Shown here piece by piece: positions 401 through 39,391 of a stretch of DNA of 64,000 bases (the stretch's first letter is position 1; every line of letters starts with the position of its first letter). This stretch comes from Bacteroidales bacterium (lineage in GTDB: Bacteria; Bacteroidota; Bacteroidia; Bacteroidales; UBA7332), in the NCBI GenBank assembly GCA_028687995.1, contig JAQTZA010000001.1, forward strand, positions 372,001 through 436,000, read 5' to 3'. Made by a program: the position numbers and the translations under genes. The notes under the pieces were generated by a model. It was not told the DNA's origin, ran no database searches, and saw only the letters and a program-made list of their open reading frames with translations.

Positions 401-455
401 TCTACCTTTTGTATCAAAAACTGAAACAGAAAAAAATATTTATCCCATACTTTTG
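401..455 (+). promoter_or_regulatory. Candidate HTCS-dependent promoter of the 571 gene
   Basis: A Bacteroidetes -7 element TACTTTTG lies at 448-455. Two half-sites, TCTACC at 401 and TGAAAC at 422, are 21 bp apart, and the second starts 26 bp before the -7. The same geometry occurs before four other pectin-locus genes (see 34380, 25026, 24798, 11929). The half-sites here are the most degenerate of the five, and no -33 TTTG is seen at normal spacing. The leader to the start codon is about 115 nt. Confidence 0.5.
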
Positions 456-11928: not shown

Positions 11929-11983
11929 CAAAGCAACCTTAAAAAGCAAAAAAACATGTGCAGATTCCGGTAAAGAAGGTGTA
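11929..11983 (-). promoter_or_regulatory. Candidate HTCS-dependent promoter of susC
   Basis: Read on the minus strand, half-sites TACACC (starting 11983) and TGCACA (starting 11962) are 21 bp apart. The -7-like element TTGCTTTG (7 of 8 matches to TAnnTTTG, at 11936-11929) begins exactly 26 bp after the second half-site. No -33 TTTG is present, as expected for an activator-dependent promoter. The same geometry is seen at 24798, 25026 and 34380. Confidence 0.6.
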
Positions 11984-12094
11984 CTTTTTGAATAAATCTC
12001 TACAAAGAATAAATCGGCACTAACATTGCCTTATTTTTGTGTTCATGGTTCAAAAAAAACTATTTACTGTGTCAAAAAAGAGTATTAAAGATAT

Positions 12095-12865
12095 TTATTT
12101 TAATTCACTTTTAAGCAACCCTAACGCCTTTAAACTTATTACCGCCTGATAAGCAAAACGGCGAGCCCCTTCTTGTTTCAGGTGTGTGTCATCATTTACA
12201 ACATAAACGATCTCTTTGGATTTCTCTGGACCTAGAGTTTCGACTAACTGCTGTGTCGAACTTGTCAAATCGACCAATGGAACCGACAAATCTACCGCTA
12301 CCTTTTTCATTGCTGATACATAATTGAGGCTCGAATCTTTTTCTGAATTTATCGACAAATTGTGCATTGCTTTTGGGGTAAGATGCTGATTCTCGAAATA
12401 GCGTCGGACAACTGGAGTAAACAGAATTGGAATTGCTCCTCGGTCGCGAGCCTCTTTCGCATACTTTTGGAGAAAAAAGCTATACTGACCATACGGCGCT
12501 GTACCACGTGCAGTGGTATCATTTTCATCTGTATCCAATCCGTTGTTTTTCTCGTCATTGTGCCCAAATTGAATAAAAACATAATCGCCGGGGTTAAGCT
12601 GGTTGCGCAACTTAGTCCATACTTCGTAGTAAAACGATTTAGAGCTTCGCCCGTTTCGAGCAGAATTGATTATTTCAACATCACTTTTTAAGAATTCTGG
12701 AAACAGTTGACACCAACCTCGCTGTTCGTTGACACCACTAAATTTAACGGTATCGTAATTGGCCATGGTGGAATCACCGATGGAGAAGATACGTGGTTTT
12801 GTGCTCCAAGAAACTAAAAATACGCTCAGAGATATGATTCCCAGGATAATAATTCTACTGTTCAT
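12095..12865 (-). CDS. SGNH-hydrolase, rhamnogalacturonan acetylesterase-like (CE12)
   Basis: The start at 12865 is chosen over the open frame start at 12898: it gives a clean signal peptide and lies 2 bp after the stop of the preceding pectinesterase gene. Block I is IGDST (Ser32), block III is FGHNDEKN and block V is DDTHLKQEG, which supplies the catalytic Asp and His. This is the arrangement of CE12 rhamnogalacturonan/pectin acetylesterases. It would remove acetyl groups from pectin backbones in the periplasm or outside the cell. It is the last gene of the six-gene enzyme operon beginning at 19835. There is no T9SS domain. Confidence 0.9.
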   Translation of the reverse strand: MNSRIIILGIISLSVFLVSWSTKPRIFSIGDSTMANYDTVKFSGVNEQRGWCQLFPEFLKSDVEIINSARNGRSSKSFYYEVWTKLRNQLNPGDYVFIQFGHNDEKNNGLDTDENDTTARGTAPYGQYSFFLQKYAKEARDRGAIPILFTPVVRRYFENQHLTPKAMHNLSINSEKDSSLNYVSAMKKVAVDLSVPLVDLTSSTQQLVETLGPEKSKEIVYVVNDDTHLKQEGARRFAYQAVISLKALGLLKSELK

Positions 12866-12867
12866 AA

Positions 12868-13833
12868 TTATTTGTTTGTCGCTTTCTGAGGATTCCAATT
12901 ATCAAAACCTCTCATCACATTTTCTAGAGTATATTCTGAAGCCTCATTTTTGGTCAACGTTCTTATCCAAGATACACGTGCTGAAGTATTTGCGCCTTCT
13001 CCTTTGTTGTTGTATTCCATAAATCTAGCACTTTTCTCGTTCTCTATTTTATCCCAATTGTGCCATCCTGTTTCTCTGATTTCATTAGGAAGAGTACAGT
13101 TCATGAACAAAACCATTGCATACGCACGCCAAGGACGACCCAAATATTCGGCTGTGACAGTACTATCTGCCATACGGATATTGCAATTATTGAAAATGTA
13201 ACCATATTTAATATTCTGAGGTGTACTCGCCGCAGTAATGTAAGAATTACGTTTACATACGATTTCACACCCTTCGAACCAAGCAGTTGACGGACCAAAA
13301 ATAAAATCAGTTGTTCCTTCGATATAACAATTGAGGAAGTATTGGCGCATATTTTCTCTGCCAGCATATATCGTATCTTGATTCCCCAAGAATTTGCAAT
13401 TAATAAATATGACCCTGTCTCCTTCTACGTGAAGAGCTACCGCCTGACCCAACTGTGCTGCTGAGTTTTCGACTGTTAGATTCTCCATCGTGATATCGTT
13501 TCCACAAATTTTCATAGAAAAAGTACGAAACGTTCCCATTTTATTGATATTGGCGTGATCGTCATAATTGATAATCGTTTTATCGCGATCCTCTCCAATC
13601 AAATGAATATTGCAGCAATAAGTAGGAATCAAAAGCTTTTCTTTGTAAAATCCCTTTTTAATAAATATCGTCACAATACCTGATGGATTGAAAGCCCGAA
13701 CCGAATCAATCGCTTGCTGTATATTTCTGAAATTGCCAGTTCCATTGCGATCAACCACAATATCGTATTTGGGTTGCTGACAATAAAGTGCCGAACTAAA
13801 TAGACAAAGAAGTACTAAAATGACGCTTTTCAT
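12868..13833 (-). CDS. Pectin methylesterase (CE8)
   Basis: This single-domain pectinesterase of 321 residues has a signal peptide (1-18) and an N-terminal VDRNGTGNFRNIQQAID block. The family signature with GQAVAL is followed by NQDTI (catalytic Asp153), TDFIFG (Asp176, nucleophile) and the LGRPW motif near residue 230. It hydrolyses the methyl esters of homogalacturonan, which makes the chain a substrate for the neighbouring pectate lyases. It lies 3 bp after the PL1 gene upstream and 2 bp before the acetylesterase, so translation is probably coupled. It lacks the Ig-like and T9SS domains of the second CE8 enzyme at 21435, suggesting a different cellular location. Confidence 0.93.
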   Translation of the reverse strand: MKSVILVLLCLFSSALYCQQPKYDIVVDRNGTGNFRNIQQAIDSVRAFNPSGIVTIFIKKGFYKEKLLIPTYCCNIHLIGEDRDKTIINYDDHANINKMGTFRTFSMKICGNDITMENLTVENSAAQLGQAVALHVEGDRVIFINCKFLGNQDTIYAGRENMRQYFLNCYIEGTTDFIFGPSTAWFEGCEIVCKRNSYITAASTPQNIKYGYIFNNCNIRMADSTVTAEYLGRPWRAYAMVLFMNCTLPNEIRETGWHNWDKIENEKSARFMEYNNKGEGANTSARVSWIRTLTKNEASEYTLENVMRGFDNWNPQKATNK

Positions 13834-13836
13834 GAT

Positions 13837-15243
13837 TTACTCCTTTTTACTTTTCTTATTGACATTGGGTTTATCAACATTTGGCTGCACGAGACTATTC
13901 AGATAAACCTCCAAGAAGGTATATCCTTCCGAATTTATATCTTTTGCATTTTTCCCCGGAAAATTCTTTTCCAACCAACCATCAGGAATTCCGTCTGAAT
14001 TACAATCGGATAACAATTCTCCCATTCTATAGTCAGGCCAACCGCCAACATCGGTTTGCGAATCTATCAGTCCTGATTTTCCTGAAAGAGAACCTTTGTA
14101 TTGATTCACACCTGTTTCAACCTCTTTTACTATTCGAGCATCCACTACATCTCGTTTAAACGATGCTCCAGCAAACAACAAAACCTTTAAATATGCATCC
14201 GTTGCCTTTTCGATTTTTACAGGTGTACATTCAAATGGAACAGTAGCTTTACAGTCAGAGATATTAACACCTTTTACAAAATCTACTCCTTTCCAATTAT
14301 TTTTGGTTACATCCGGAAAACCAACTACATAATTATTTTCTATAAAATATTTTCCATAGCCCGGAGGACATAACGATGGGTTTGCATCCATATCGATGTT
14401 AGTAATACGTCGTCGAATGGTCGATTTCGTGGCATCACCAGCTTTAAAATAATTGGCGACTATGTTAAATTTGCCACTTTCGCCACCATAAGAGCTATTC
14501 TCGCCCCAATTATAAATCACATTATTACAAAAGTCAACTCTCTCTTCGTCCAATGAGTTATTGTATTTTAATCCAGCACGGCGTAAACCATTGAATCTCG
14601 GATTGCGGCTGCTATGATCGGCAATCAGATTATGATGGAAAGAGGCATTTTTACCACCCCATATTCCTCCATATCCGTGTGCACCTTTCGGATGTTCCGA
14701 ATTATTGAGAGACTCAGAAATGATGCACCACTGCATTGTGAAATTTTCATTTGAATAAAATGAAGCACATTCGTCAACCGACCAACTGGCTGAGCAATGA
14801 TCGATAATGATATTTTTATGATCTCTTCCACCCAATGCATCGGGATCGTGATTTTTGACCAAATCGCCTAATCTAAACCGCATAAAACGAATAATCACAT
14901 TGTTGGTATTAATAAACAGGTCATTATCTTTTATACAAATACCATCTCCTGGAGCACTTTGGCCTGCAATTGTAACAGAATCATTTTTAATGGATAGCGT
15001 CTTGGTTAGGCTAATTAATCCAGATACTTTAAACAAAATTATTCGAGATCCTTTTTGATTGACGGCCCAACGAAATGTTCCTTTTGAGCCATCATCAGCT
15101 AGTGAAGTAACGTATAATACTTTCCCACCTCTTCCTCCTGTGGTATACATACCACCACCTTCAGCGCCAGGGAATGCAGGAATTTGTGCCTGAATATATA
15201 AACTGATGAAAAGAAATAGTAGAAGGATTATTTTTGATTTCAT
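13837..15243 (-). CDS. Pectate lyase, PL1 family, no T9SS domain
   Basis: The mature protein opens with the FPGAEGGGMYTTGGRGG block typical of a PL1 subgroup in Bacteroidetes. The beta-helix core carries DHCSASWSVDE, the HGYGGIWGG block and the SRNPRFNG block with the likely catalytic Arg. It would cleave de-esterified homogalacturonan by beta-elimination with Ca2+. At 468 residues it ends in a Lys/Asn-rich tail with no T9SS domain, unlike its paralogue immediately upstream (15251-16948), with which it shares the same block order. A signal peptide (1-19) sends it at least to the periplasm. The 3- and 7-bp gaps on either side place it within the operon. Confidence 0.93.
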   Translation of the reverse strand: MKSKIILLLFLFISLYIQAQIPAFPGAEGGGMYTTGGRGGKVLYVTSLADDGSKGTFRWAVNQKGSRIILFKVSGLISLTKTLSIKNDSVTIAGQSAPGDGICIKDNDLFINTNNVIIRFMRFRLGDLVKNHDPDALGGRDHKNIIIDHCSASWSVDECASFYSNENFTMQWCIISESLNNSEHPKGAHGYGGIWGGKNASFHHNLIADHSSRNPRFNGLRRAGLKYNNSLDEERVDFCNNVIYNWGENSSYGGESGKFNIVANYFKAGDATKSTIRRRITNIDMDANPSLCPPGYGKYFIENNYVVGFPDVTKNNWKGVDFVKGVNISDCKATVPFECTPVKIEKATDAYLKVLLFAGASFKRDVVDARIVKEVETGVNQYKGSLSGKSGLIDSQTDVGGWPDYRMGELLSDCNSDGIPDGWLEKNFPGKNAKDINSEGYTFLEVYLNSLVQPNVDKPNVNKKSKKE

Positions 15244-15250
15244 TGATGTG

Positions 15251-16948: not shown

Positions 16949-16986
16949 CAAGAGCATAAATGACTAAATTTTTCAGAAATATTGAA

Positions 16987-19835: not shown

Positions 19836-20157
19836 GGTAAATTGAAATTATGTATTATAATAAATTGAAACCTTTTTACTAAAATAGAATATGCCCTCAC
19901 AATGCAAATCGTAAATACGTATTGAATTTGAAAAACGACATTGCAATTCGATGAATGCCTTTATCGAAACCGAGTGCAAGATATATCAATCAAAAAAAGT
20001 CGATGTGGGAAAAATTGATTTATAATGGGGAGAATTTGACAATTAGCAATTTGTCGTCTGAAAATGACATATTATTAGATAAATTTGCATAAAATGATTC
20101 AATACATTAGTTCTTAACAATGTACACACATTCTTCAATCTGTTAATTTTCAAAACT
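19836..20157. other. Divergent intergenic region, GH28 operon / DUF4861 gene
   Basis: This 322-bp gap separates divergent genes and must hold promoters in both directions. For the plus strand there is a perfect -7 element TAAATTTG at 20080-20087; a small inverted repeat (GACAA 20038-20042 / TTGTC 20051-20055) lies just upstream. It does not show the TCCACA-type pair found at other locus promoters. I see no coding sequence. Confidence 0.5.
19976..20030 (-). promoter_or_regulatory. Weak candidate HTCS-dependent promoter of the GH28 operon
   Basis: On the minus strand CCCACA begins at 20009, and 26 bp later TATCTTGC (6 of 8 matches to TAnnTTTG) begins at 19983. The distal half-site position (20030) reads CCCCAT, a poor match. 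The geometry is the same as in the stronger copies, but the matches are weaker and chance is possible. Confidence 0.3.
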
Positions 20158-21366
20158 ATGACTAAAAAAACATTCATCTCGTTAGCAATACTGCTCTCAC
20201 TTTCGGGAAACATTATTTGTCAGAAATCGGTTAATCAGATTTCTATCAAAAATATCGGACGCGAAAAATTGGTTGATTTCACACTCGAACTTCCATTATC
20301 AAAATTCAATCTATCATTAACCAATTACATAGCGATTGTAGATAACAAAATCGTTCCTATTGAAACAAGTGAAAATATATTTGGCATCAAAACAATCATT
20401 TTGCCAATTGACACTTTGGATGTTAATAAGACTCATAAAATAGAAATTAAAGAAGGATTCTCTGCAACTTATCCCAAAAGGACTTATGCCGAGTTATCCC
20501 ATAAAATTGGCGGACATTTTGAGGGCAAAAAATATGTTGGCAGTTTTTCATGGGCAAAGACAAATTACATCCGCGTACCCGATGAATACACCGATCACTC
20601 CTTCTACCTAAAATACGAAGGTCCTGGTTGGGAAAGCGACAAAACAGCCTATCGGTTCTACCTCGATTGGCGAAATGCAATGGACTTATTCGCAAAAAAA
20701 ACACCACTGATGATTCTACCAGGCGTTGGAATTGATGGCTACGATAGTTATCATAAACCGTCCGACTGGGGAATGGATGTATTGAAAGTTGGTAAAGCAT
20801 TAGGTGTAGGTTCAATCGCTGTATGGGATGGTAAAATTGCAATTAGAGTGGACAAAAAAGATAGTACTATTTGCTACATTAAGGCGGACGGAAAAATCCG
20901 TTCGCAGGTAATGACAACTTACTTTGGGTGGAATGCCAATGGAATCAAATGCAATCTAAAATCGCTTATCAGCATTGATGCGGGCAGTAGAGCAACGCAC
21001 GTAGAATTATTAACAGACAAAGATTTACCAAATATTGCTTCTGGATTAAACATCGAAAAAGACGTTGAAATTCTTACTGAAGAAAAACCACTAGGTGAAT
21101 GGACCTACTTTGCCACTTTTGGCAAACAAAGCTTAGCGGATGACAACATGGGTTTGGCAATATTTTACCGCAAAAAACAACTCAAAGAGATTACCAAAGA
21201 TCCATTAAGCCATGTAATAGTACTAAATCAAGATCATCGCTTTGTTGAATATTATTTCATGGCTACCTGGGAACAAGAGTGGCAATCAGTCAAAAGCAAA
21301 GCGGATTTCTTAAACGCAATTCAGGAAGTCGAAAATAGACTCAATAACAAAATTCAAATACGTTAG
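20158..21366 (+). CDS. DUF4861 family secreted protein
   Basis: The 402-residue protein has a signal peptide (1-21) and then an Ig-like N-terminal segment (about 25-105). A larger beta-rich domain follows, with GGHFEGKKYVG, YRFYLDWRNAMDLF and DSYHKPSDWGMDVLKVG blocks. I recall these blocks as typical of DUF4861, a family common in pectin and other uronate-polysaccharide loci of Bacteroidetes. Its biochemical function is not established to my knowledge. The conserved Trp/Asp/His-rich blocks suggest an enzyme or a glycan-binding protein. It is transcribed alone, divergently from the GH28 operon, and is followed by a strong terminator. Confidence 0.8.
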   Translation: MTKKTFISLAILLSLSGNIICQKSVNQISIKNIGREKLVDFTLELPLSKFNLSLTNYIAIVDNKIVPIETSENIFGIKTIILPIDTLDVNKTHKIEIKEGFSATYPKRTYAELSHKIGGHFEGKKYVGSFSWAKTNYIRVPDEYTDHSFYLKYEGPGWESDKTAYRFYLDWRNAMDLFAKKTPLMILPGVGIDGYDSYHKPSDWGMDVLKVGKALGVGSIAVWDGKIAIRVDKKDSTICYIKADGKIRSQVMTTYFGWNANGIKCNLKSLISIDAGSRATHVELLTDKDLPNIASGLNIEKDVEILTEEKPLGEWTYFATFGKQSLADDNMGLAIFYRKKQLKEITKDPLSHVIVLNQDHRFVEYYFMATWEQEWQSVKSKADFLNAIQEVENRLNNKIQIR

Positions 21367-21390
21367 TCTTTTTAGAAATTGCGATTTACA

Positions 21391-21424
21391 AAAATAGCTG
21401 AATCAAATGATTCAGCTATTTTTT
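21391..21424. terminator. Bidirectional terminator after the DUF4861 gene
   Basis: A 15-bp stem (21391-21405 with 21408-21422) is bounded by A and T runs. It can serve the plus-strand gene ending at 21366 and the minus-strand pectinesterase ending at 21435. Confidence 0.85.
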
Positions 21425-21434
21425 GTTTAATGAA

Positions 21435-24400
21435 CTATCGAACTATCACCTTGGCTATTTTATTGCCACATCTCACTATATACATTCCTTTTTCGATTAT
21501 AAAAGAATTTATACCAGAGGAAATTTTCTGCGTTTGTATTAATACACCAGTGCAGGAATAGATTTCAATCATACCATAATGAACACTATTCACGACAATT
21601 TGTCCTTGTTCGGAATAGATAAATGATTGATTTGTAGATGCCGCAATGTGAGTGAGTGAATCAACAGTAGCAGTAGTAGAGCTGCTCAATGCCCCAAATT
21701 CAGAAACAGCAATCACCTTGTACACCGATCCATCAGAATAGGTAGTTGAATAGTTAGTTGTGCTAGAAAATCCAATAACTACTTCATCTTTCAAAACTAC
21801 ATAACAAATGGCTCCGTCTACTGCATTCCAAGTGATTCCATCATTAGAAACAACTACATTTTCTACCATTGCTGTGGTTTGTGGTTTGAGCGTGGCATCC
21901 CACGAATCACCCCCACCGAGTACATTTGTCATTGTATAATTAGCAGCTTCTTCAGTTGTCAAAGTTGCCGTAGGACTACTACCTGAAACCACATTACTAT
22001 TCCCATCAGTGTAGGAAAATGAGGTATTTCTTCCTGCCAATGAAACGGAGTTATTAGATGAATTAACCGTAGCATATTCCGCAAACAGTGCCGGAATAGT
22101 ACTCATACTAATCCAACCTCCAGTAGAAGCCAAAATATTCATTTTCGTATTCAAATAGACTGCACGTGGTGAGTTTTGCCAAGGGCGACCCAAATTATAG
22201 ACTCCATCTTGTGAACTCGCTCCGTCTATAGTACAATTATTGAAGACATACCCATAGTTATTCGCAACTGCGGTAGAAGGTGCGCAAATTACATCAGCTG
22301 TAGGGCGATCTTGCATATAAAGTAGGCAACTTTCGAAGAAACAAGCACCATTTCCAAAGATAAAATCAACTGATCCACGAATGTCACAATTCAGATAATA
22401 CTGGCGATCAGCACCGACATTAGAGGTTAAATGTGTATCTTGATATCCAAATAATTTGACGTTTTTGAACACATTCTTATCGCCATACACTTTCAAAGCT
22501 ACTGCTTGACCAGCATTAAGTCCTGCTGTGTTTTCAATCGTAACATTCTCCATATATAAATTTTTGGCCATTATTTCTACAGTCTGGCAAGTAGAAGTCG
22601 TGTAGGCACCAAGTCCACTGTAGTGACTTCCAGTGATAATCACTCCATCGCGACTCTGACCAATAATACTTACATTGTCCTTTGAAGCAGCAAGGGTTGG
22701 GTATTCGTTATAGGTTCCGTTTTTAACAAAAATAAAATATGGAGTGGCATTATTCAAGGGTACAGCATTAAAAGCTGATTGAATTGTCGTTCCATTGCCT
22801 GAACCATCTTGTGCAACTACAAAATCAAACAATTTTGGGGTTACTGCCGGTTTCGCTTTAGTTGTAAAACTGAGGGTAAAGGCTCCGCAAGGATTGTTGA
22901 ATAAATCTTTGAATGCTCCTGCTGGTACATCAAGGGTGTAAGCGGTTGAATAATGAAGATTCGCATAAGGCAATGTAATATTTTTACCCACAACTCCGGG
23001 AGAAAGTGTTACACCATTGAGCGTAATGTTGCCACTACCCAACGATACATTTTCACTATAAGTCATTTTAATCGAACCGTTTATAGCAACATCAGTTCCA
23101 GAAGCTATTGGAGTTGTAGATGCAACACTCGGATTTAATCCATCATCGACTGGTCCATTCAAATTAAATTGATATACATCAATAAAATAGAGCCAAAGAT
23201 TGGCGCTGTTATACATCAAACGCAACGTAGTCGGAATCGATGATTGAGCCGCAGCCGTTTTCACTAGTGCTCTGTCATTTGTACCAATGATAAATGTTTC
23301 AATCGTGTTCCAAGTGACACCGTCACCAGCCAACTTTTGGATGTAATATTCTTGGGGAACAGAACCACCACCAGATTGAATATAAAAACTCAGCTCACCC
23401 ACCGAAGGAAGAGTAGGTAATGTAACTGAATTGGTTTTAAACGAATAGGTATAAGGTGATGCGGCACGTGCACCAGCACTTTGCACATTATCAAAACTAA
23501 ATGTATATCCATTTACAGTTTGACTTACAGTACCCGAACTTACACCCGGCACAGATGTTGCATCTGGTGTAAAGCTAAATAATTGTGTGCCTTTTGCATC
23601 CACTTCGGTATGAAAAGTGATGGTTGTTCCAACATACGAATTATTTGCAACGTCGGTAATCGCATTTGTAGGAATTGTCAAAGTATAATCTGTATCGTAT
23701 GCCAATCCGCTGTAATTGATATAAATTAAATTGCTATTAGAACCAGATACAGCGGGTGTAATAATTTTTGAACCAATTGATACATTAGCTGAACCCGCCT
23801 TGCAAGTTTCACTCATCACGAAAGAGATAAATCCATTTACTGGCAGAGTAGTACCATTGCTAATTGATACATTTGATGCTGTTGGAAATATTGTATCCGG
23901 AGTTTTGAATGTAGCACTCGTAATGGCTGCTGTAACTGTGTTCACAGAGTTTTTAAAAGCACCTGCAGGAACGTTCAAGACATACGAATTATCAGTGCTC
24001 AAACCAGAATAATTGATTGTAACCGTAGATGCACTTACTGAAATATCAGATTCGGAAACGGCAACTCCACCTAACGTAATATCATTTGCTGTGGCGCGGG
24101 TTACATTTTCAGAATACTCAATCGAAATACTACCACTTGTTGGGATAGTGCTTCCAGTAACGGGTGCAACTGACACCACAGTTGGTGGTGTTGGTGCTGA
24201 AACGTCTCCATAAATTTGCAAATCGGTTAGATAGGCATTTTGAGTGGGTGCTAAATTGGTAAATTTTAGCTGAACGTTTGTGCCGTTAACGGCCAAATTA
24301 GAGACACGAACGCCAGTACTGGGATTTACAAACGTATTGTAAATACTGACCCAATCGGCATCTCCGTTGCCTTTTTTCCATACTTGAAATCCACGACTAC

Positions 24401-24764
24401 TACCGGTAGTAGCTTCCACAAATGTGATTTTAGTGATAGATGCTATAGCACTTGTGATGATAGACATCGTGCCCGATGTTACTTCAGTTGTTTTTGCCAT
24501 TTTGAGATATCCCGACGAAGCGATACCTGCAGCTTGTGCTCCAGTCGACCAACCACTGTTGGCAATAGAGATCCCATACATGGTATATGTCAACGATTCA
24601 TTTGATAACATAGTTGTTTTGACAACCGAATTGTTTGGCGAAGCAGTGGATGCAGTATAATTAGTCCATGACTGAAAATTTTCGTCCACTAAAAGCTGTT
24701 CAGACGCTTTTGAAAGTTGTAACAACAGAAAAGCTAAGATAAAAAAGGAGAATGTTTTTTTCAT
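21435..24764 (-). CDS. Multidomain pectin methylesterase (CE8) with Ig-like and T9SS domains
   Basis: This 1109-residue secreted enzyme has, after the signal peptide (1-20), a jelly-roll-like N-terminal module (about 25-190). Two bacterial Ig-like (Big_5/SbsA type) modules begin near PPTVVSVAPVTGSTIP and IFPTASNVSISNG, then come another beta-sandwich module and a third Ig-like module (about 550-640). The CE8 catalytic domain spans about 645-960, with GYQDTHL (Asp776), VDFIFGNG (Asp800) and LGRPW. A T9SS sorting domain closes the protein. It should de-esterify insoluble or cell-wall pectin outside the cell, with the modules acting as spacers or binders. It has its own promoter (24798-24852) and terminator, so it is monocistronic. 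Confidence 0.92.
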   Translation of the reverse strand: MKKTFSFFILAFLLLQLSKASEQLLVDENFQSWTNYTASTASPNNSVVKTTMLSNESLTYTMYGISIANSGWSTGAQAAGIASSGYLKMAKTTEVTSGTMSIITSAIASITKITFVEATTGSSRGFQVWKKGNGDADWVSIYNTFVNPSTGVRVSNLAVNGTNVQLKFTNLAPTQNAYLTDLQIYGDVSAPTPPTVVSVAPVTGSTIPTSGSISIEYSENVTRATANDITLGGVAVSESDISVSASTVTINYSGLSTDNSYVLNVPAGAFKNSVNTVTAAITSATFKTPDTIFPTASNVSISNGTTLPVNGFISFVMSETCKAGSANVSIGSKIITPAVSGSNSNLIYINYSGLAYDTDYTLTIPTNAITDVANNSYVGTTITFHTEVDAKGTQLFSFTPDATSVPGVSSGTVSQTVNGYTFSFDNVQSAGARAASPYTYSFKTNSVTLPTLPSVGELSFYIQSGGGSVPQEYYIQKLAGDGVTWNTIETFIIGTNDRALVKTAAAQSSIPTTLRLMYNSANLWLYFIDVYQFNLNGPVDDGLNPSVASTTPIASGTDVAINGSIKMTYSENVSLGSGNITLNGVTLSPGVVGKNITLPYANLHYSTAYTLDVPAGAFKDLFNNPCGAFTLSFTTKAKPAVTPKLFDFVVAQDGSGNGTTIQSAFNAVPLNNATPYFIFVKNGTYNEYPTLAASKDNVSIIGQSRDGVIITGSHYSGLGAYTTSTCQTVEIMAKNLYMENVTIENTAGLNAGQAVALKVYGDKNVFKNVKLFGYQDTHLTSNVGADRQYYLNCDIRGSVDFIFGNGACFFESCLLYMQDRPTADVICAPSTAVANNYGYVFNNCTIDGASSQDGVYNLGRPWQNSPRAVYLNTKMNILASTGGWISMSTIPALFAEYATVNSSNNSVSLAGRNTSFSYTDGNSNVVSGSSPTATLTTEEAANYTMTNVLGGGDSWDATLKPQTTAMVENVVVSNDGITWNAVDGAICYVVLKDEVVIGFSSTTNYSTTYSDGSVYKVIAVSEFGALSSSTTATVDSLTHIAASTNQSFIYSEQGQIVVNSVHYGMIEIYSCTGVLIQTQKISSGINSFIIEKGMYIVRCGNKIAKVIVR

Positions 24765-24797
24765 TTGTTTGGATTTTTATAGGTTGTGTGTTTCATA

Positions 24798-24852
24798 CAA
24801 AATTACTGCGGATTGATATATTTAATGTTCAAAAATTGACATTATAGGTGGA
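24798..24852 (-). promoter_or_regulatory. Candidate HTCS-dependent promoter of the large CE8 gene
   Basis: On the minus strand TCCACC (starting 24852) and TGAACA (starting 24831) are 21 bp apart. A perfect -7 element TAATTTTG starts at 24805, exactly 26 bp after the second half-site. The leader to the start codon is about 33 nt. Divergent from the similar promoter at 25026-25080. Confidence 0.65.
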
Positions 24853-25025
24853 GATTTTAAAGATGATATTCTTCCGACAAGATGACTTTGAAATTTCATC
24901 ATTCCTCTACCATAAGCCTGCCATTCATATATAAGATAAAAAAGAAGATTAGTTATATTCCTAATATCTGAAATATTATTCAAAAAAATCAACTTAATAT
25001 TTATTCCTAACAGATAAACAAAATG

Positions 25026-25080
25026 TCCACACTATATGCAGATTAATCCACATCCATAGTAAACATTTGCCGTAAGTTTG
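25026..25080 (+). promoter_or_regulatory. Candidate HTCS-dependent promoter of the PL9-PL1 operon
   Basis: Two exact TCCACA half-sites (25026 and 25047) are 21 bp apart. The perfect -7 element TAAGTTTG (25073-25080) starts 26 bp after the second. No -33 TTTG is present. The leader is only about 20 nt. Together with the copy at 34380 this is the clearest example of the shared architecture. Confidence 0.75.
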
Positions 25081-25099
25081 CAATCTGAATTATCCCTTT

Positions 25100-26671
25100 A
25101 TGCTCATGAAAAAAAACACAACTCTTCTTATTCTAGTAACATTATATATTTCAATATTTAATGCGGAAGTGTTTGCCACAAACTATTATGTTTCTCCTAC
25201 AGGATCTACTTCTGCTGCTGGAACAATAACTGCTCCTTTGAGTTTTACTACTGCCATTGCCAAATCACTCACAGCAGGCGATTCTGTTATTCTACGTGGC
25301 GGCTTATATAGTTTTAATGCTCTTCAACAAATATCAAAATCAGGATCGGCAGTCAAATATTTACACATTGTGGCTTATCGCAATGAAGTTCCGGTACTAG
25401 ATTTCAGAAATCAAGCTTACAATTCGAGCAATCAAGGGGTGAAAATATCTGGCAATTATGTTCATTTTAAAGGAATCACGGTGCAGGGTGCAGGCGATAA
25501 TGGTATTCAAATAACAGGCAGTAATAATTTTATAGAATTCTGTGTTGCTCGATGGAATTGTGATTCGGGATTTCAACTTAAAACAGGAAGCAATAATTAT
25601 ATTCTAAACTGTGATTCGTACGAAAATTTCGATTATGAAAGTGGTGGAACTGCTAGTCCAGATTTTGGAGGAAACGCAGATGGTTTTGCAGATAAACAAT
25701 ATACAAACACTGGGACGAATACATTCAAAGGATGCCGTTCGTGGAGAAATAGCGACGATGGATGGGATCATTTCGAGAAAATTGGAAATACAGTACACGA
25801 CAGCTGTTGGTGTTATGCCAACGGACCAGCGTCTTTTGACATGACAGATAATATTCGTTTTAAAACGGACAGTGCAGCATGGTTTTCTAAATTCAAGAAT
25901 GGGTCTGGACGATATGTGATGACTAACTATGGCAATGGAAATGGATTTAAATTAGGCGGGAATTATACCGCTAACAACTCGGTTGTACATCATTGTATAT
26001 CAGTAATGAATAAAGTAAAAGGATTTGATCAAAATAATAACAACGGTACAATGACCATTATTAATTGTACTGGTTACAAAAATGGCAATAATTATGGTTT
26101 CTCAAATAGTAGTTATGGCACTTTGATAATTAAAAACTGTGCCTCCCTCAGTAGTACTGGCTCCAATAGTTTCGCATGCAAATCGGTAACTCAGACCAAT
26201 AATACTTGGAATTCAGGTTTTGGATGTACTACGGCAGATTTTGCAAGTCTGGATAATACCCAAATGCTAAATCCACGTCAAGCCGATGGATCTTTGCCCG
26301 AAATAACCTTGCTTCATTTAGTTTCTAATAGCATCATGATTGATAAAGGTGTCGTTTTAGAATATGGCTACGTAGGCTCTGCTCCAGATCTTGGTGCGTA
26401 TGAATATGGCAATCTTTCGCCCATCAACAATGTAATTGAACAGAACACAAATCCAATCATTTACTTTTCGCAAGAATCAAAAGAAATACATATACTCGGT
26501 GAGATAAAATCAGTTGAAATTTTTGATATTTCTGGGAAAAGGGTAGTTTCAATTTCACAAACAGAAGAAAATCAGATTTTGTCTGGGAGTAACCTACCAA
26601 AAGGAGCTTGTATCGTAAGGACAAAAAGTATCGACGGACACATCACCAATCAAAAACTGTTTATTCAATAA
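25100..26671 (+). CDS. Pectate lyase, PL9 family, with T9SS sorting domain
   Basis: The 523-residue protein has a signal peptide and an opening NYYVSPTGSTSAAGT block, followed by a parallel beta-helix. The PL9 active-site features are visible: NADGFADK, the Ca2+-binding RNSDDGWD cluster (Asp219, Asp220, Asp223) and a Lys in GNGFKLGG (Lys284) at the position of the catalytic base in characterised PL9 enzymes. The spacing between cluster and Lys is longer than I recall for the Dickeya enzyme, suggesting an insertion. The last about 75 residues form a T9SS domain, so it is an extracellular endo-lyase. The start could be the second Met at 25106. It is co-transcribed with the PL1 gene 27 bp downstream. 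Confidence 0.9.
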   Translation: MLMKKNTTLLILVTLYISIFNAEVFATNYYVSPTGSTSAAGTITAPLSFTTAIAKSLTAGDSVILRGGLYSFNALQQISKSGSAVKYLHIVAYRNEVPVLDFRNQAYNSSNQGVKISGNYVHFKGITVQGAGDNGIQITGSNNFIEFCVARWNCDSGFQLKTGSNNYILNCDSYENFDYESGGTASPDFGGNADGFADKQYTNTGTNTFKGCRSWRNSDDGWDHFEKIGNTVHDSCWCYANGPASFDMTDNIRFKTDSAAWFSKFKNGSGRYVMTNYGNGNGFKLGGNYTANNSVVHHCISVMNKVKGFDQNNNNGTMTIINCTGYKNGNNYGFSNSSYGTLIIKNCASLSSTGSNSFACKSVTQTNNTWNSGFGCTTADFASLDNTQMLNPRQADGSLPEITLLHLVSNSIMIDKGVVLEYGYVGSAPDLGAYEYGNLSPINNVIEQNTNPIIYFSQESKEIHILGEIKSVEIFDISGKRVVSISQTEENQILSGSNLPKGACIVRTKSIDGHITNQKLFIQ

Positions 26672-26698
26672 AACTTTATATTCTAATAACATATACCA

Positions 26699-29521
26699 AT
26701 GAAAAAGCAATTATTTATTTTATCAATTTTATTATTTGTGTCTCTACTTTTAAGTGCACAAACAGTCACAATAAGCGAATCCGTTGGATGGCTTGAATCA
26801 GCTTATGTAAAATGGCAACCGGTTGAAGGTGCTAGTAGCTATAATGTTTATTATAGTGGTATTGGAGTTACAAATAAAAAAATCGACAATCAACTAATTC
26901 GCAGTTATGGCACCTATTTTCGTGCAGATGTAATGGGGATAAGTGCTGGATCATATACCATCAAAGTAGCTCCCGTAATCAATGGATCAGAAGGCACTGC
27001 TACTACAACAGATCCAATTACTGTTTTGGCGCAAGACCGCACAGGTTTTGCTTTTGATGGAGGACGTGTTCCTGGAGGTTATAAAGCAGATGGTACAATT
27101 AAAGATGGTGCCGTGATAATTTATATTACAGAAAATAATAAAAACACTATTTCATTGAATATTACCGGAGCGACGACCAATCCATGTGTCGGTCTTCAAA
27201 ATATTCTGTATGGAATAAAAAAAGGAAAAGATACCCGACCATTTATCATTCGTTTAATTGGTAACATCACCGATATGACTGTGATGGAAGGAGAAGACAT
27301 CGTTATTGAAAACGCTAATAATGCTTCAAGTTATATCACATTTGAAGGTGTTGGTTCAGATGCAGTGTGCAATGGTTGGGGAGTTCGTTTAAAAGGAGCG
27401 ACTAACATAGAAGTGCGTAATCTGGGTGATATGAATTGCAACAGTACAGCAGGTGATGATTTCGGATTACAACAAGACAATGATCATGTTTGGTTACATA
27501 ATTGCGACATGTTTTACGGTAATGCAGGTAGCGATGCTGATCAAATAAAAGGAGATGGTGCATTGGACAATAAAGGTTCAACCTATATTACGTTCTCTTA
27601 CAACCACTTTTGGGACAATGGTAAAGCGAGTTTACTTGGCTTAAGCGAAAATACAACTACCGGTTTGTATATCACATATCATCACAACTGGTTCGACCAC
27701 TCAGATTCTCGACACCCACGTGTCAGATTTTACTCTGCACACGTTTACAACAACTATTATGATGGAAATGCTAAATATGGCGTTGGTTCCACTGAAGGTT
27801 CATCTGTTTTTGTAGAAGGAAATTACTTCCGCAACTGTAAACATCCAATGATGATATCGATGCAAGGATCAGATGTTTGGAACACCACAACTTTAGTAAA
27901 TGACCCAAACAACATGGGAACTTTCTCAGGTGAAAATGGTGGAATTATTAAAGCATTCAATAATACATTTGACACGTCAATCGGCACAAACAACATGCGT
28001 TTTGTAGCTTATGGCGACCCAAACGCTGCGTTCAACATTGCAGGAAAAATAAGTTCAACAATAGATTTCGATGCTTATCTGGCCACTTCTCGAGGAGAAC
28101 AAGTTCCTGCTACAGTGAAATCCTTCCTTGGAGGTAACACATACAATAACTTTGATATAGATGCAGCTCTATATGTTAAGAATTTGGTAATCGATGAACC
28201 AACTGTAGCAAGAGACAAATCAATGCAATACGCAGGTCGTGTAGATGGTGGTGATTTGAAATTCACATTCAATAACTCAGTAGATGATGCCTCTTATTTG
28301 GTAAATAATACCATAAAGACGGCTCTTACAAATTACACCTCTCAACTGGTTTCAGTTCAAGGCGATATCATTACCGGAGAGCAAACTATCTCTTCGCCAG
28401 CGAACAATAATCAAACAGTGACAAGTGGAACAGCGATTAGCTCTATTGTTTACACTTGGGGTGGCATTGCGACTGATGCAACAGTCACAGGAATACCTGC
28501 ATCTGGACTTACATTCGTAAAAGACGCAACCGCTAAAACAGTCACTATTTCGGGAACACCAACAGCAACTGTTTCTTACTCAATTGCAACGATTGGTATT
28601 GGTGGTACCTCAGTTACTGCGTCTGGCACCATTACTGTATCTTTACCAAGTAGTCAAACAATTAGCAATCCTGCAAACAAAGATCAAACTGTAAATACTG
28701 GAATAGCAATTGAACCCATCATTTTCACTTGGGGTGGCGATGCTACAGATGCTACAGTAAGTGGATTACCAGCTTCGGGTATTGATTTCGTGAAGGATTC
28801 TACAGCTAAAACCATCACAATTTCTGGTACACCAACAGCAACAATCTCATACTCAATTGCTACATCTGGAAATACTGGAACTTCTGCATCAGTATCAGGA
28901 ATCATTACATTATCAAATGATAATGGTTCAACAGGAGAGTTAATTCACGATTTTACTGCATCAGGCAAGACAAGCACTATTTTCACAATTACAGGGAATC
29001 TTTCTACAGGCTACGGAAGCGTCACTTATGCAGGATTAACACTGACGCAATGTCTTAAAATGGAGTCAAGCACCAACATTGCATTCTCAACTATTGGAGA
29101 TGGAACCCTGACTTTAGTATTTGGAAGCACCTATACTGGAACAATAAAGGTAGATGGAACTGTATTCGCACCTATTTCTGGTATTATAAATGTTCCGTTG
29201 ACAGCAGGAAGTCATACTATTGCGAAAGGAAGTGGATCAAATTACCTGTTCTACATTCGCTTTGCCTACACAACTACAGCGGTGAAGAATACGTTAGTTT
29301 CAGACATTAATTTCTATCCAATTCCTGTGATAAACACGCTAAATATTTCTTCCAGCTCATCTATTAATAGAACTGACATCTTCAGTCTATCAGGGACTTT
29401 GCTAGTAAGAATAGATGGAAACCAAAGAACAATCGATTTAGGTAATTTAAAAAGAGGAAGTTATCTTATTAAAGTATCTACTGAATTGGGAGTAAAAAAT
29501 CAAATGATTATAAAAAAATAG
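26699..29521 (+). CDS. Pectate lyase, PL1 family, with Ig-like repeats, CBM-like and T9SS domains
   Basis: The protein has 940 residues. After the signal peptide (1-20) comes an FN3-like domain (about 25-110), then a PL1 beta-helix with the conserved DNDHVWLHNC Ca2+ block, the YHHNWFDHSDSRHPRVRF block holding the catalytic Arg, and a YNNYYDGNAKYGVGS block (to about 540). Two near-identical 91-residue Ig-like modules follow, then a beta-sandwich module of about 105 residues that looks like a carbohydrate-binding module, and a T9SS sorting domain. It is secreted and would depolymerise homogalacturonan at a distance from the cell. It is the second gene of the PL9-PL1 operon. Confidence 0.93.
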   Translation: MKKQLFILSILLFVSLLLSAQTVTISESVGWLESAYVKWQPVEGASSYNVYYSGIGVTNKKIDNQLIRSYGTYFRADVMGISAGSYTIKVAPVINGSEGTATTTDPITVLAQDRTGFAFDGGRVPGGYKADGTIKDGAVIIYITENNKNTISLNITGATTNPCVGLQNILYGIKKGKDTRPFIIRLIGNITDMTVMEGEDIVIENANNASSYITFEGVGSDAVCNGWGVRLKGATNIEVRNLGDMNCNSTAGDDFGLQQDNDHVWLHNCDMFYGNAGSDADQIKGDGALDNKGSTYITFSYNHFWDNGKASLLGLSENTTTGLYITYHHNWFDHSDSRHPRVRFYSAHVYNNYYDGNAKYGVGSTEGSSVFVEGNYFRNCKHPMMISMQGSDVWNTTTLVNDPNNMGTFSGENGGIIKAFNNTFDTSIGTNNMRFVAYGDPNAAFNIAGKISSTIDFDAYLATSRGEQVPATVKSFLGGNTYNNFDIDAALYVKNLVIDEPTVARDKSMQYAGRVDGGDLKFTFNNSVDDASYLVNNTIKTALTNYTSQLVSVQGDIITGEQTISSPANNNQTVTSGTAISSIVYTWGGIATDATVTGIPASGLTFVKDATAKTVTISGTPTATVSYSIATIGIGGTSVTASGTITVSLPSSQTISNPANKDQTVNTGIAIEPIIFTWGGDATDATVSGLPASGIDFVKDSTAKTITISGTPTATISYSIATSGNTGTSASVSGIITLSNDNGSTGELIHDFTASGKTSTIFTITGNLSTGYGSVTYAGLTLTQCLKMESSTNIAFSTIGDGTLTLVFGSTYTGTIKVDGTVFAPISGIINVPLTAGSHTIAKGSGSNYLFYIRFAYTTTAVKNTLVSDINFYPIPVINTLNISSSSSINRTDIFSLSGTLLVRIDGNQRTIDLGNLKRGSYLIKVSTELGVKNQMIIKK
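28382..28914 (+). repeat. Internal tandem repeat encoding two 91-residue Ig-like modules
   Basis: Module 1 starts at 28382 (QTISSPANN) and module 2 at 28655 (QTISNPANK), a period of 273 bp. The two share blocks such as TWGG, GIPASGL/GLPASGI and TISGTPTAT. This is an in-frame intragenic duplication in the PL1 lyase and a likely site of copy-number change. Confidence 0.85.
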
Positions 29522-29578
29522 ATTCGCAATTATTACAGAATAAACTCATGCACAGTGTGCAGAAATATTGAAATTCTT

Positions 29579-29610
29579 ACAGCTTCTGCAGATTAAACTG
29601 TAGAAGCTGT
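29579..29610 (+). terminator. Hairpin after the PL9-PL1 operon
   Basis: A 13-bp stem (29579-29591 with 29598-29610, one G-T pair) with a 6-nt loop lies 58 bp after the PL1 stop codon. The downstream T run is weak, so termination is likely but may be inefficient. Confidence 0.5.
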
Positions 29611-29696
29611 AGTATTTAATAAAAATTAATACTTAATAAAGAAATTTGCAAAAAAAATGGTTTTTAACCTCGCAATAAATTATCCTATTTCGAAAG

Positions 29697-29726
29697 ATTG
29701 ATTTTCGAACAAATAGGTTATCTTTG
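29697..29726 (+). promoter_or_regulatory. Housekeeping-type promoter of the HTCS gene
   Basis: A perfect -7 element TATCTTTG (29719-29726) is preceded at 18-bp spacing by ATTG (29697-29700), matching the -33 element of Bacteroidetes. Unlike the enzyme promoters of the locus it has no TCCACA pair, which fits constitutive low-level expression of the sensor. Confidence 0.55.
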
Positions 29727-29794
29727 TTTTGACGCCGATTGTTTCCGTCACGCCTTAAATCTGAAAACACAAAATTAGAAAAACCCTATCTACC

Positions 29795-32700
29795 ATGAAA
29801 AAGGTTGTTTTTTATATCGTCTTTTGCGCTTTTTATTTGCTCTCATTTGGACAAACAAGGGATCAATTTGCACACTACTCTGTAAATGACGGTTTATCTG
29901 AAATCAATGTGCTTTGTATGCTTCAAGACCAAAAGGGTCAAATGTGGTTTGGTACTTTTGACGGTCTAAATAAATTTGACGGTTATACTTTCAAAACTTA
30001 TAAAGGAAATTCTGGCGATATTTTTGGTCTTGTAAATTATAGAATCGATAGAATAAAAGAAGATAACGAAGGCTTTATATGGCTTCAGACCTATGATGGC
30101 AGAACCTATCGTTTTAATCCACGAACAGAGAGATTTCTTCAAATTCCCCAATGCAAAAAAGAGTATACAGACTACAGATTACCATTTGATAAAATATACA
30201 CGCTCAACGATGGTAGTATTTGGATTTCAGGCAGTGACAATGGTTGCTTTAAGATACGAAACACTGAGAATGAAGACTCGGTTAAAATAACACACTACAG
30301 TACCGATTATGGCTTATTATCTTGCAATAAAGTCAATGCAATATACAGCGATAAGAAAAAAAACACTTGGATATTAACCAATGATGGCCTCAATCTCATC
30401 AAACAAGGTTCTGAAAAACCACAACAACTATTCAATGAGAAACAGGAGACCAGTTTTTATTCAATTTCCGAAAACTATCCATACATTTGGATTGGAGGAA
30501 ACCGGGGAAGATTGAGAGTATATGATAGTAGGAAAGAGACTTTTGATGTGATAAATACACCTGTTTCTGAATCAAATATCATCGATATCAAACGTGTCAA
30601 TGCTCAGGAAATTTTTCTTTTGACCAATAAAACAGGGTTTCTGCTGTACAACATTCAAGATCACAAGTTTACTGAGTTTAATAAAAATAGCGGAGATGGT
30701 ATTATTAGTGATAATTTCTACTCCTGCTTCATGGACAAACAACATAATATTTGGCTCGAGACAGACAAACCAAGTGTAGTCTATTTTGAGACAGGGAAAC
30801 GAAAAGTCAATAATTTCAGTGTGTTTGTAGACAATTCTGCTCCATTTGTGGTATTGCCAAACTTTTTTGTTGTAGAAGATTCGTTGGGTAATACTTGGGT
30901 ACATCCTCGCAAAGGTGGATTTAGCAAATATAACCGCTTATCTAATAAACTTGATTATTTCTACAACGATCCAAACTCCATTGACCACAAGTTTTCGAAT
31001 GTAATGCACTCAGCATACTCCGATCGACAAGGAAATCTGTGGCTAAGTCCTTTTTCTCATGGTATTGAGAAAGTCGTTTTCAGCAAATCGTCATTCAATT
31101 TTTACAAACCAGTACCCAATCAGACTGTATCTTCGCACATCGAAGTCAGATCCATTTTCCAAGACAAAGATAACTATCTTTGGGTTGGCACAAAAGATGG
31201 CACAATTCATATTTACGATCCTCAGCGCAAATTGTTAGGCAAACTATGTGAAGATGGTAAAATAAATGGGTCAAAGCCTTTAAACGCTTCCATTTACAAC
31301 ATTACCAGCGATCACAATGGCACAATTTGGCTATCTTCAAAAGGGTTAGGATTATTCAAAGTCGTTAAATCACCCTTTGGCAAAAGCTTTAAATGCACCA
31401 TTACCAATTATCAGTACAATCCAGATGATATTTACAGTCTGAGCTCAAACGCAGTCTATTCGGCATTTGAAGATAGTATGAATCGCTTGTGGGTAGCCAC
31501 TTATGGCGGTGGTATAAACTTGATGCAAACGACCGATGGCGAAGTGAGATTTATTAGTTATCGGAATAAACTAAAAAATTATCCAGTTGAACAATGTTTA
31601 AGGACTCGCTTTATCACCGAAGACAAACGGAATAGAATGTTTGTCGGGACGACAAGTGGATTAGTTGCATTTAACGGAAAGTTCAGCAAGCCAGAAGATG
31701 TTCAGTTCTATCAATATTCTCATCATCCAGAGCAGGCTCAATCAATATCAGGAAATGACGTTCACTACATTCTACCAGCAAAAGATGGCAAAATCTATTT
31801 GGCCATATTTGGTGGTGGATTAAATATTTTGGATTCAAAATTCAAATTGAATGAAAATCCAAATTTCATAAAACTCATGAAGTCTAGCGGTGCTCCGTCG
31901 AATGTAATTTTCACATTGAAAGAGGATGTGAAAGGTGATATTTGGTTTTCAACTCAGACTGAAATTGCTAAATTTTCTCCCACAACTCAAAAATTTGATG
32001 CCTATAATCCAATCAACAACAACAATTATAACTTCATTGAGGCTTCAGCTTGCAAAATAAACAATGGAGAATTGGCCTATGGTACTACTGAAGGATTTGT
32101 CATTTTCGACCCATTGAAAACGAAAAAGAGCAAATTTATTCCACGGATTATTTTCACTCAATTTCAGCTGTTTAATAAAACACTTGAGGTTGGAGATAAA
32201 GATTCACCGCTTACACATGTAATCGACGAAACAAAAAACCTAAAACTAAACTCGAAACAAAATATTTTCTCAATCGGTTTTGCTGCCATTGATTATACGA
32301 ATCCGCTCAACATTGAATACGCATATAAGTTAGAAGGGTTCGATTCTGAATGGAATTATGTCGGGAATCATCGTTTTGCTACCTACACAAACCTTCCAAA
32401 AGGAAAATATACGCTGCGCGTAAAATCTACGAATTCAGACGGTGTGTGGGTTGAGAATGAACGAAGTATCGTAATCGAAAGATTGCCATCTTTCTGGGAA
32501 TCTTCTTGGGGAATTCTTCTCTATATTCTTCTATTTTTGGGTATCATGATTTTGACCGCATATATTCTATTTATCATTCTTCGACTTAAAAATGAAGTAG
32601 AAGTGGAACATCGAATCAGCAATATGAAACTTCGGTTCTTTACCGACATTTCACACGAATTGAGAACACCACTAACATTGATTGCCTCTCCTATCGAAAA

Positions 32701-34231
32701 CATTCTGCGCCATGAATCGATTTCGGATAAAGTGAAAGATCAATTGGAAATTGTACAGCGCAACACCGATCGTATGCTTCGACTGATCAATCAAATACTT
32801 GATTTTAGAAAAATACAGAACAAAAAAATGAAGCTATTCATCGAAGAGGTAAGAACAGGAACTTATGTCGAAGAAATCTGCCAAAGTTTCAGAAAGCTTG
32901 CTGAAGAACGTCAAATTGAATTTCTAGTTGAAGACCACAGCAACGATGCAATTCTATGGCTTGATAAAGATAAATTTGAGAAAATTCTCTTCAATCTTTT
33001 GTCTAATGCATTCAAATTCACACAACCACGTCACGCCATAAACGTCTCAATTACTGACGAGAACAACCTTATTGTGCTCAAAGTTACCGATCAAGGCGAA
33101 GGCATCAGTAGCGACCGACTAAAAACGCTCTTCACTCGATTCGAAAGTTTCGCCACAAACGGAGTTTCTTTCCAACAAAGCTCCGGCATCGGACTTTCAC
33201 TCACTAAGGAGTTAGTAGAAATGCACATGGCAGAAATCAACGTGCAAAGCAACCCCGGTGAAGGCTCTTCATTTATCGTTTCCTTCCTTAAAGGACACGA
33301 ACATTTCGACCATAATAAAGACTTCATTTTGAACGATTTAGAAAAACAGGAAAATAACCATCTCGAAGAGACAAAAACCAATATTGAAGAACTAGAAGAC
33401 GAAACACCAATAGAAGCAAATGACAAACCAGTTATTCTGATTGCTGAAGACAACACAGAACTTCGCAATTTTTTGAAAAACATTTTGTCAATCGATTACG
33501 AAATTCTGGAAGCCGAAAATGGCATTGAAGCATTAGCATTGTCCAAGGAGCATATTCCTGATTTAATCATTACAGATGTCATGATGCCACTCATGGATGG
33601 ACTTCAACTTTCTAAATTGATCAAGGAAGACATCAATATTAGCCATATTCCATTGGTTTTGCTTACCGCCAAAACCGACATGGAAAGCAAACTCGAAGCA
33701 TTGCAATACGGTGTTGACGATTATATCACGAAGCCATTCAGTTCGGCATACCTCGAAGCGAGAATAACTAATCTTCTAAATTTACGGAAGCAGCTTCAAA
33801 ATTTATATCGATCAGCCATTACAAGCGGCGTTATTTCGCCGTCGAAACCGAATGTTATTTCGCAAGACGATATATTCATCCAACGTATAATGAAGTACGT
33901 CGAAGATAATATTGATAATTCGGAGTTGACAATAGACGATATTGTATCAAATGTCAATTTTAGTCGTTCCGCATTTTTCAAAAAACTGAAAAGCTTGACT
34001 GGTCTCGCTCCAGTTGAATTTTTGAAAGAGATGAGAATACAACGATCTGCACAACTAATCGAAACAGGTGAATTTACAATTAGTCAAATTACGTATATGG
34101 TGGGGATAAGTGATCCTAGATATTTCAGCCGATGTTTTAAGCAAAAATTTGGCATTAGTCCTCGGGAGTACAAAGAGAAAATAGTATCGTCATCCAGAAG
34201 TGATATCGGAATGGCGGAACGCGAAGAATAA
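29795..34231 (+). CDS. Hybrid two-component system regulator (HTCS) of the pectin locus
   Basis: This 1478-residue single-protein sensor-regulator has a signal peptide (1-19), then about 14 Reg_prop beta-propeller repeats forming the periplasmic sensor (to about 800). A Y_Y_Y domain (about 815-900), one transmembrane helix (about 907-932) and a HisKA domain with phospho-accepting His954 in ISHELRTPL follow. A HATPase domain (NLLSNAFKFT, DQGEGIS, GIGLSLTKEL), a receiver domain with Asp1261 in IITDVMMP, and an AraC-type DNA-binding domain (about 1365-1465) complete it. All catalytic residues look intact. HTCS proteins bind oligosaccharides in the periplasm and activate the adjacent utilisation locus. 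The ligand here is presumably a pectin oligomer. AraC-type domains bind direct repeats, which fits the 21-bp-spaced half-sites found before locus genes. Confidence 0.95.
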   Translation: MKKVVFYIVFCAFYLLSFGQTRDQFAHYSVNDGLSEINVLCMLQDQKGQMWFGTFDGLNKFDGYTFKTYKGNSGDIFGLVNYRIDRIKEDNEGFIWLQTYDGRTYRFNPRTERFLQIPQCKKEYTDYRLPFDKIYTLNDGSIWISGSDNGCFKIRNTENEDSVKITHYSTDYGLLSCNKVNAIYSDKKKNTWILTNDGLNLIKQGSEKPQQLFNEKQETSFYSISENYPYIWIGGNRGRLRVYDSRKETFDVINTPVSESNIIDIKRVNAQEIFLLTNKTGFLLYNIQDHKFTEFNKNSGDGIISDNFYSCFMDKQHNIWLETDKPSVVYFETGKRKVNNFSVFVDNSAPFVVLPNFFVVEDSLGNTWVHPRKGGFSKYNRLSNKLDYFYNDPNSIDHKFSNVMHSAYSDRQGNLWLSPFSHGIEKVVFSKSSFNFYKPVPNQTVSSHIEVRSIFQDKDNYLWVGTKDGTIHIYDPQRKLLGKLCEDGKINGSKPLNASIYNITSDHNGTIWLSSKGLGLFKVVKSPFGKSFKCTITNYQYNPDDIYSLSSNAVYSAFEDSMNRLWVATYGGGINLMQTTDGEVRFISYRNKLKNYPVEQCLRTRFITEDKRNRMFVGTTSGLVAFNGKFSKPEDVQFYQYSHHPEQAQSISGNDVHYILPAKDGKIYLAIFGGGLNILDSKFKLNENPNFIKLMKSSGAPSNVIFTLKEDVKGDIWFSTQTEIAKFSPTTQKFDAYNPINNNNYNFIEASACKINNGELAYGTTEGFVIFDPLKTKKSKFIPRIIFTQFQLFNKTLEVGDKDSPLTHVIDETKNLKLNSKQNIFSIGFAAIDYTNPLNIEYAYKLEGFDSEWNYVGNHRFATYTNLPKGKYTLRVKSTNSDGVWVENERSIVIERLPSFWESSWGILLYILLFLGIMILTAYILFIILRLKNEVEVEHRISNMKLRFFTDISHELRTPLTLIASPIENILRHESISDKVKDQLEIVQRNTDRMLRLINQILDFRKIQNKKMKLFIEEVRTGTYVEEICQSFRKLAEERQIEFLVEDHSNDAILWLDKDKFEKILFNLLSNAFKFTQPRHAINVSITDENNLIVLKVTDQGEGISSDRLKTLFTRFESFATNGVSFQQSSGIGLSLTKELVEMHMAEINVQSNPGEGSSFIVSFLKGHEHFDHNKDFILNDLEKQENNHLEETKTNIEELEDETPIEANDKPVILIAEDNTELRNFLKNILSIDYEILEAENGIEALALSKEHIPDLIITDVMMPLMDGLQLSKLIKEDINISHIPLVLLTAKTDMESKLEALQYGVDDYITKPFSSAYLEARITNLLNLRKQLQNLYRSAITSGVISPSKPNVISQDDIFIQRIMKYVEDNIDNSELTIDDIVSNVNFSRSAFFKKLKSLTGLAPVEFLKEMRIQRSAQLIETGEFTISQITYMVGISDPRYFSRCFKQKFGISPREYKEKIVSSSRSDIGMAEREE

Positions 34232-34379
34232 CTATAACAAAATTTCACTTTCAAAAATCAGATTATACCTTTTCAGAATCAAAGTCACTGAATCTGTGAC
34301 AATTTGCAATTTTAACGGGAATATCTAGTAAGAATTTAATGTTCTATTTTTATCAATATTTTTAAGAAATACCAAAAAA

Positions 34380-34434
34380 TCCACAGATTCAAACTATTTG
34401 TCCACACGTTTCTTTTCGTGAGAGTTTACATTTG
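34380..34434 (+). promoter_or_regulatory. Candidate HTCS-dependent promoter of the 34484 gene
   Basis: Two exact TCCACA half-sites (34380 and 34401) are 21 bp apart. The perfect -7 element TACATTTG (34427-34434) starts 26 bp after the second. This matches base for base in geometry the promoter at 25026-25080. The remaining bases from 34232 to the promoter hold no gene that I can see. Confidence 0.75.
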
Positions 34435-38198: not shown

Positions 38199-38207
38199 AT
38201 ATTAACA

Positions 38208-39377: not shown

Positions 39378-39391
39378 TAAATCGACAAAAA

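Follow-up and report, generated by a model that had tools for sequence, protein, structure and literature searches.

A two-part sequence tag held at a fixed distance from the -7 element appears to mark five, and probably six, promoters for pectin digestion in the window, the stretch of 64,000 nucleotides analysed here (positions 372001-436000 of contig C3, in a genome of 3.56 Mb). The 55-bp element has a rigid spacing, is conserved in other genomes, precedes pectin genes and is specific for this locus and for one class of DNA-binding domain of hybrid two-component system (HTCS) regulators. It is very probably the operator-promoter unit of the HTCS encoded at 29795, which would activate transcription as a tandem AraC-type dimer replacing the -33 contact of the promoter.

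Organization of the locus and of the candidate operators

The window carries a pectin utilization locus with the composition of a polysaccharide utilization locus (PUL): a SusC/SusD pair, pectin-active enzymes and a local regulator (Table 1). Five sites follow exactly the arrangement of the original prediction, with 21 bp from the start of one half-site to the next and 26 bp from there to the start of the -7. They have the hallmarks of HTCS operators, namely a direct repeat with a period of about 21 bp located upstream of PUL operons. The half-site TCCACA that had been proposed is present but too short, its longer form being TMCACMT-n5-A-n-CAAAWW followed by TnCACA. The motif of a matrix held out from the window reads approximately TMCACMT-n5-A-n-CAAAWW-n-TnCACA-N20-TAnnTTTG. 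Its upstream half-site comprises two boxes separated by roughly one turn of the helix, which fits the paired helix-turn-helix units of AraC-type domains, and its downstream half-site keeps the first box only.

Table 1. Candidate operator-promoter elements and genes of the pectin locus (window coordinates). Bits and ranks are those of the held-out weight matrix, built from other genomes only.
Feature	Position	Strand	Starts of half-site 1/half-site 2/-7	Remarks
Operator + -7, TCTACC-N15-TGAAAC-N20-TACTTTTG	401..455	+	401/422/448	Before gene 571; 24.0 bits, rank 3
Operator + -7, TACACC-N15-TGCACA-N20-TTGCTTTG	11929..11983	-	11983/11962/11936	Before SusC/SusD/esterase operon; 22.2 bits, rank 5
Probable weaker operator, 22-bp repeat, TCCCCA...CCCACA...TATCTTGC	19976..20031	-	20031/20009/19983	Before GH28/GH88/pectinesterase/GDSL operon
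Operator + -7, TCCACC-N15-TGAACA-N20-TAATTTTG	24798..24852	-	24852/24831/24805	Before pectinesterase gene 24764-21435; 25.6 bits, rank 1
Operator + -7, TCCACA-N15-TCCACA-N20-TAAGTTTG	25026..25080	+	25026/25047/25073	Before pectate-lyase-like genes 25100-29521; 24.0 bits, rank 4
Operator + -7, TCCACA-N15-TCCACA-N20-TACATTTG	34380..34434	+	34380/34401/34427	Before gene 34484; 24.4 bits, rank 2
Secreted protein gene	571-4080	+		Behind 401 operator
SusC/SusD/esterase operon	11875 down to 4143	-
SusC-like TonB receptor gene	8672..11875	-		Part of target operon
GH28/GH88/pectinesterase/GDSL operon	19835 down to 12095	-
DUF4861 gene	20158-21366	+
Pectinesterase with Big_5 domains	21435..24764	-		Target; Pfam
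Pel9A-like beta-helix protein and pectate lyase with CBM77	25100..29521	+		Target operon; Pfam
HTCS gene	29795..34231	+
Secreted protein gene	34484-35269	+		Behind 34380 operator

In this group the primary promoter consists of the TTTG/TAnnTTTG pair (PMC7366714). A TAnnTTTG-like -7 had been predicted throughout and is found at four of the five sites, the exception being the site at 11983, where the -7 is TTGCTTTG. None of the five has a -33, so that they depart from the sigma-ABfr promoter. This absence of a -33 TTTG, although predicted correctly, is weak evidence and does not count alone because several window promoters unrelated to PULs also lack it; it was discarded as an independent argument, the count of 0/38 following from the geometry. 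Half-site 2 covers the stretch where the TTTG would sit, 18-21 bp before the -7, and in the other promoters of relative loci the TTTG peaks 19-20 bp before the -7. This placement is most naturally read as that of an activator replacing the missing -33 contact.

The sixth site, which precedes the GH28 operon, was predicted as a weak one at 20030/20009/19983 (-). It holds as a plausible weaker site, but the register was off by one: with TCCCCA beginning at 20031 (-) the half-sites are 22 bp apart rather than 21, and the -7 (TATCTTGC) is poor. In the 21-bp register the site was rejected, with -6.6 bits from the ungapped held-out matrix. With a tolerance of 1 bp in the spacing it scores 17.7 bits, sixth highest in the window; among 797,400 control positions a single one reaches 18. 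The sequence at 20031 (-) is thus a probable weaker operator of the GH28 operon.

Specificity, conservation and candidate regulon

A genome-wide search gave 5 matches to the five-site pattern in 3.56 Mb, all in the pectin locus, none to the reversed pattern, and 5 in the window versus 0.00 in shuffled windows; the genome and window counts are post hoc. Held-out tests carry more weight, since the pattern was fitted to those five sites. In a matrix of 21 sites from other genomes, chosen with the window-derived pattern and from related loci that are not independent, the window sites rank 1-5 at 22-26 bits and the next place has 8.8. The control maximum is 12.3 bits in 0.8 million positions, the controls being 0.4 Mb of stretches read on both strands; the genome-wide searches were made by pattern and not by matrix. 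A scan of the window for Crp-like palindromes gave only weak, unremarkable matches.

The spacing was compared across other genomes, in 79 loci that carry HTCS relatives. The 21/26 pair is the commonest of 528 spacing pairs with every degenerate pattern tried on the full set, three versions of which gave 12 occurrences versus a mean of 0.52, 29 versus 1.45 and 42 versus 7.05. It also comes first in a letter-free test for any repeated hexamer upstream of TAnnTTTG (15 versus a mean of 0.82). The spacing of TCCACA half-sites taken alone, ignoring the -7, is not discriminating in the relatives. Places scoring at least 17 occur in 47 relative loci and are intergenic in 69 of 77 cases (90%), the non-coding share of that sequence being 15%. 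The two nearest genomes have about two good matches each with the pattern used. The shared 21/26 arrangement is confirmed as real and far beyond chance. Note that in L028 two operator matches before a SusC gene, 22029 and 22009 (21950-22029, -), overlap at about 20 bp from each other, which suggests a three-unit tandem repeat. The orthologous locus L004 (70% identity) has weaker back-to-back matches at 411 (-) and 485 (+), one of which precedes a GDSL-esterase gene.

The genes examined behind such sites in relatives code for GH28, GH88/105, pectinesterase, pectate lyase, DUF4861, GDSL esterase and SusC-like receptors, the exceptions being one GH95 and one unassigned secreted protein (L005). 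The latter is homologous to the window 571 product (36% over 657 aa) and lies behind an operator as well (L005 14503); the gene of the fifth predicted site, at 401, therefore has an operator in a second genome too. L005, L018, L026, L037 and L061 resemble the window in carrying an operator immediately downstream of their HTCS gene. The proposal of a candidate HTCS operator with a pectin regulon agrees with all tests made and is supported by the conservation of the spacing in other genomes and by downstream genes that are mostly related to pectin.

The regulator and competing readings

The HTCS at 29795..34231 (1478 aa) combines in one chain Reg_prop propellers and Y_Y_Y of the sensor, HisKA, HATPase_c, a receiver and, as anticipated, a terminal AraC-type HTH (Pfam). 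The closest solved chain for its receiver and DNA-binding parts is 12aw_A (E 7.6e-87), whose CHIP motif aligns to SHIP in the window protein. This places it in the standard inhibited class with an S/CHIP receiver motif, a consensus linked to phosphorylation-dependent release and DNA binding of the DNA-binding domain (PMC11253607). Its gene has the ordinary promoter that had been described (TTG-N18-TATCTTTG, -7 at 29719..29726, +) and no operator.

That the repeat belongs to another regulator of the same pectin genes, either a different HTCS or a one-component AraC protein encoded elsewhere, is unlikely. The genome does have further HTCS genes and binding by the 29795 protein is predicted, but across genomes site presence follows the DNA-binding domain of this HTCS: the leave-one-out matrix score rises with the identity of the domain of the locus HTCS to that of the window (Spearman 0.585, n=94), and HTCS loci at 40% identity or less mostly have no site, including most of those from one related genome. 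The other HTCS loci sampled in the window genome (L127, L128, L129) score 7.7 or less, and the site adjoins the HTCS gene in orthologous loci. L027, L058 and L080 have a similar DNA-binding domain and no high-scoring site within the locus stretch scanned.

Repression, with a bound dimer blocking the -33 region until pectin frees it, would agree with the overlap of half-site 2 and the -33 slot, and repression is documented for at least one HTCS whose receiver motif departs from the consensus (PMC11253607). It is very improbable in view of the consensus SHIP of the window protein, of promoters lacking a -33 that could be blocked and of the pectin HTCS BT4111, which is needed for growth on homogalacturonan (PMC3243724). 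A chance likeness among AT-rich promoters picked by eye can practically be dismissed; the pattern was indeed found after the fact and its half-sites vary, but the held-out spacing, letter-free and matrix tests contradict it, as do the genome-wide exclusivity and the intergenic placement of the sites.

For activation by the 29795 protein we infer binding, activation and sigma contact at the operator in the following manner. A pectin breakdown product would bind the periplasmic propeller, whereupon the kinase part would phosphorylate the receiver and free the AraC-type domain. The tandem repeat would then be occupied by two copies on the same face of the DNA; the upstream copy would contact the two boxes, TMCACMT as well as CAAAWW, and the downstream copy mainly TnCACA. 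The downstream copy, sitting at the -33 position, would help the primary sigma factor to use the -7. The genes turned on in this way would be those for SusC/D, pectate lyase, pectinesterase and the secreted proteins, and probably the GH28 operon; the HTCS gene itself would not be among them.

Relation to known systems and associated genes

Sixteen HTCS motifs were predicted for Bacteroides by Ravcheev et al. 2013 (PMC3878776), as direct repeats averaging 21 bp that would bind same-face dimers. They include HTCS_Rgu-1, with 12-bp sites and a 9-bp spacer, at the pectin locus BT4108-23 of B. thetaiotaomicron. This locus is induced by homogalacturonan, on which disruption of HTCS BT4111 reduces growth to 11.6% (PMC3243724), and the receiver-DNA-binding fragment of BT4124 binds the bt4114 promoter (PMC11253607). 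The kind of operator is therefore already known, since the 2013 prediction includes a pectin one. The window resembles the HTCS_Rgu-1 regulon (BT4111/BT4124) in its pectin/homogalacturonan locus, its HTCS with an AraC-type domain, its 21-bp direct repeat and its gene classes; it comes from a different lineage, and the comparison of the operators covers their period. Bacteroides relatives whose HTCS has about 43% identity carry the same operator, for instance B. faecis (L013 5820+ and 22221-). The window repeat shares the period of about 21 bp with HTCS operators generally (PMC3878776), but it is also held 26 bp from the -7 and covers the -33 slot. No description of this fixed distance and slot occupation was found in the HTCS literature examined. 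At pBAD of E. coli, AraC occupies the tandem direct repeat araI1-I2, of about 21 bp, whose promoter-proximal half-site overlaps the upstream promoter element. The window system differs in its sigma factor and in its membrane-bound, phosphorylated sensor.

The geometry suggests how HTCS activators make up for an absent -33 contact, and it gives a strict rule for recognising the operator-promoter unit of pectin HTCSs throughout the Bacteroidales, by which a regulon can be read directly in sequence. It is possible, if somewhat doubtful, that the 21-bp repeat locked 26 bp from the -7, with a half-site for the -33, is a promoter grammar for HTCSs of all substrates; it is seen in the pectin HTCS clade only, the samples of other HTCSs being small (8 promoters, and 34 around a second family). 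Were it general, most HTCS regulons would be readable by one gapped sequence search.

The operator predicts regulon members such as the uncharacterised secreted proteins 571 and 34484. Both have sorting tails, no assigned catalytic family and good operators upstream, and show no resemblance to each other outside the sorting tail. They may be pectin-binding or new pectin-active proteins. A TonB-type receptor operon (CarbopepD_reg_2/Plug, DUF4249, MG2; 35496-41841, +) adjoins the pectin locus and has no operator. The DUF4861 gene of the window also has none. In L018 a strong operator precedes a DUF4861 gene right after the HTCS gene, and L026 and L061 have a strong operator in the same place, before a gene taken as DUF4861-type from its size.
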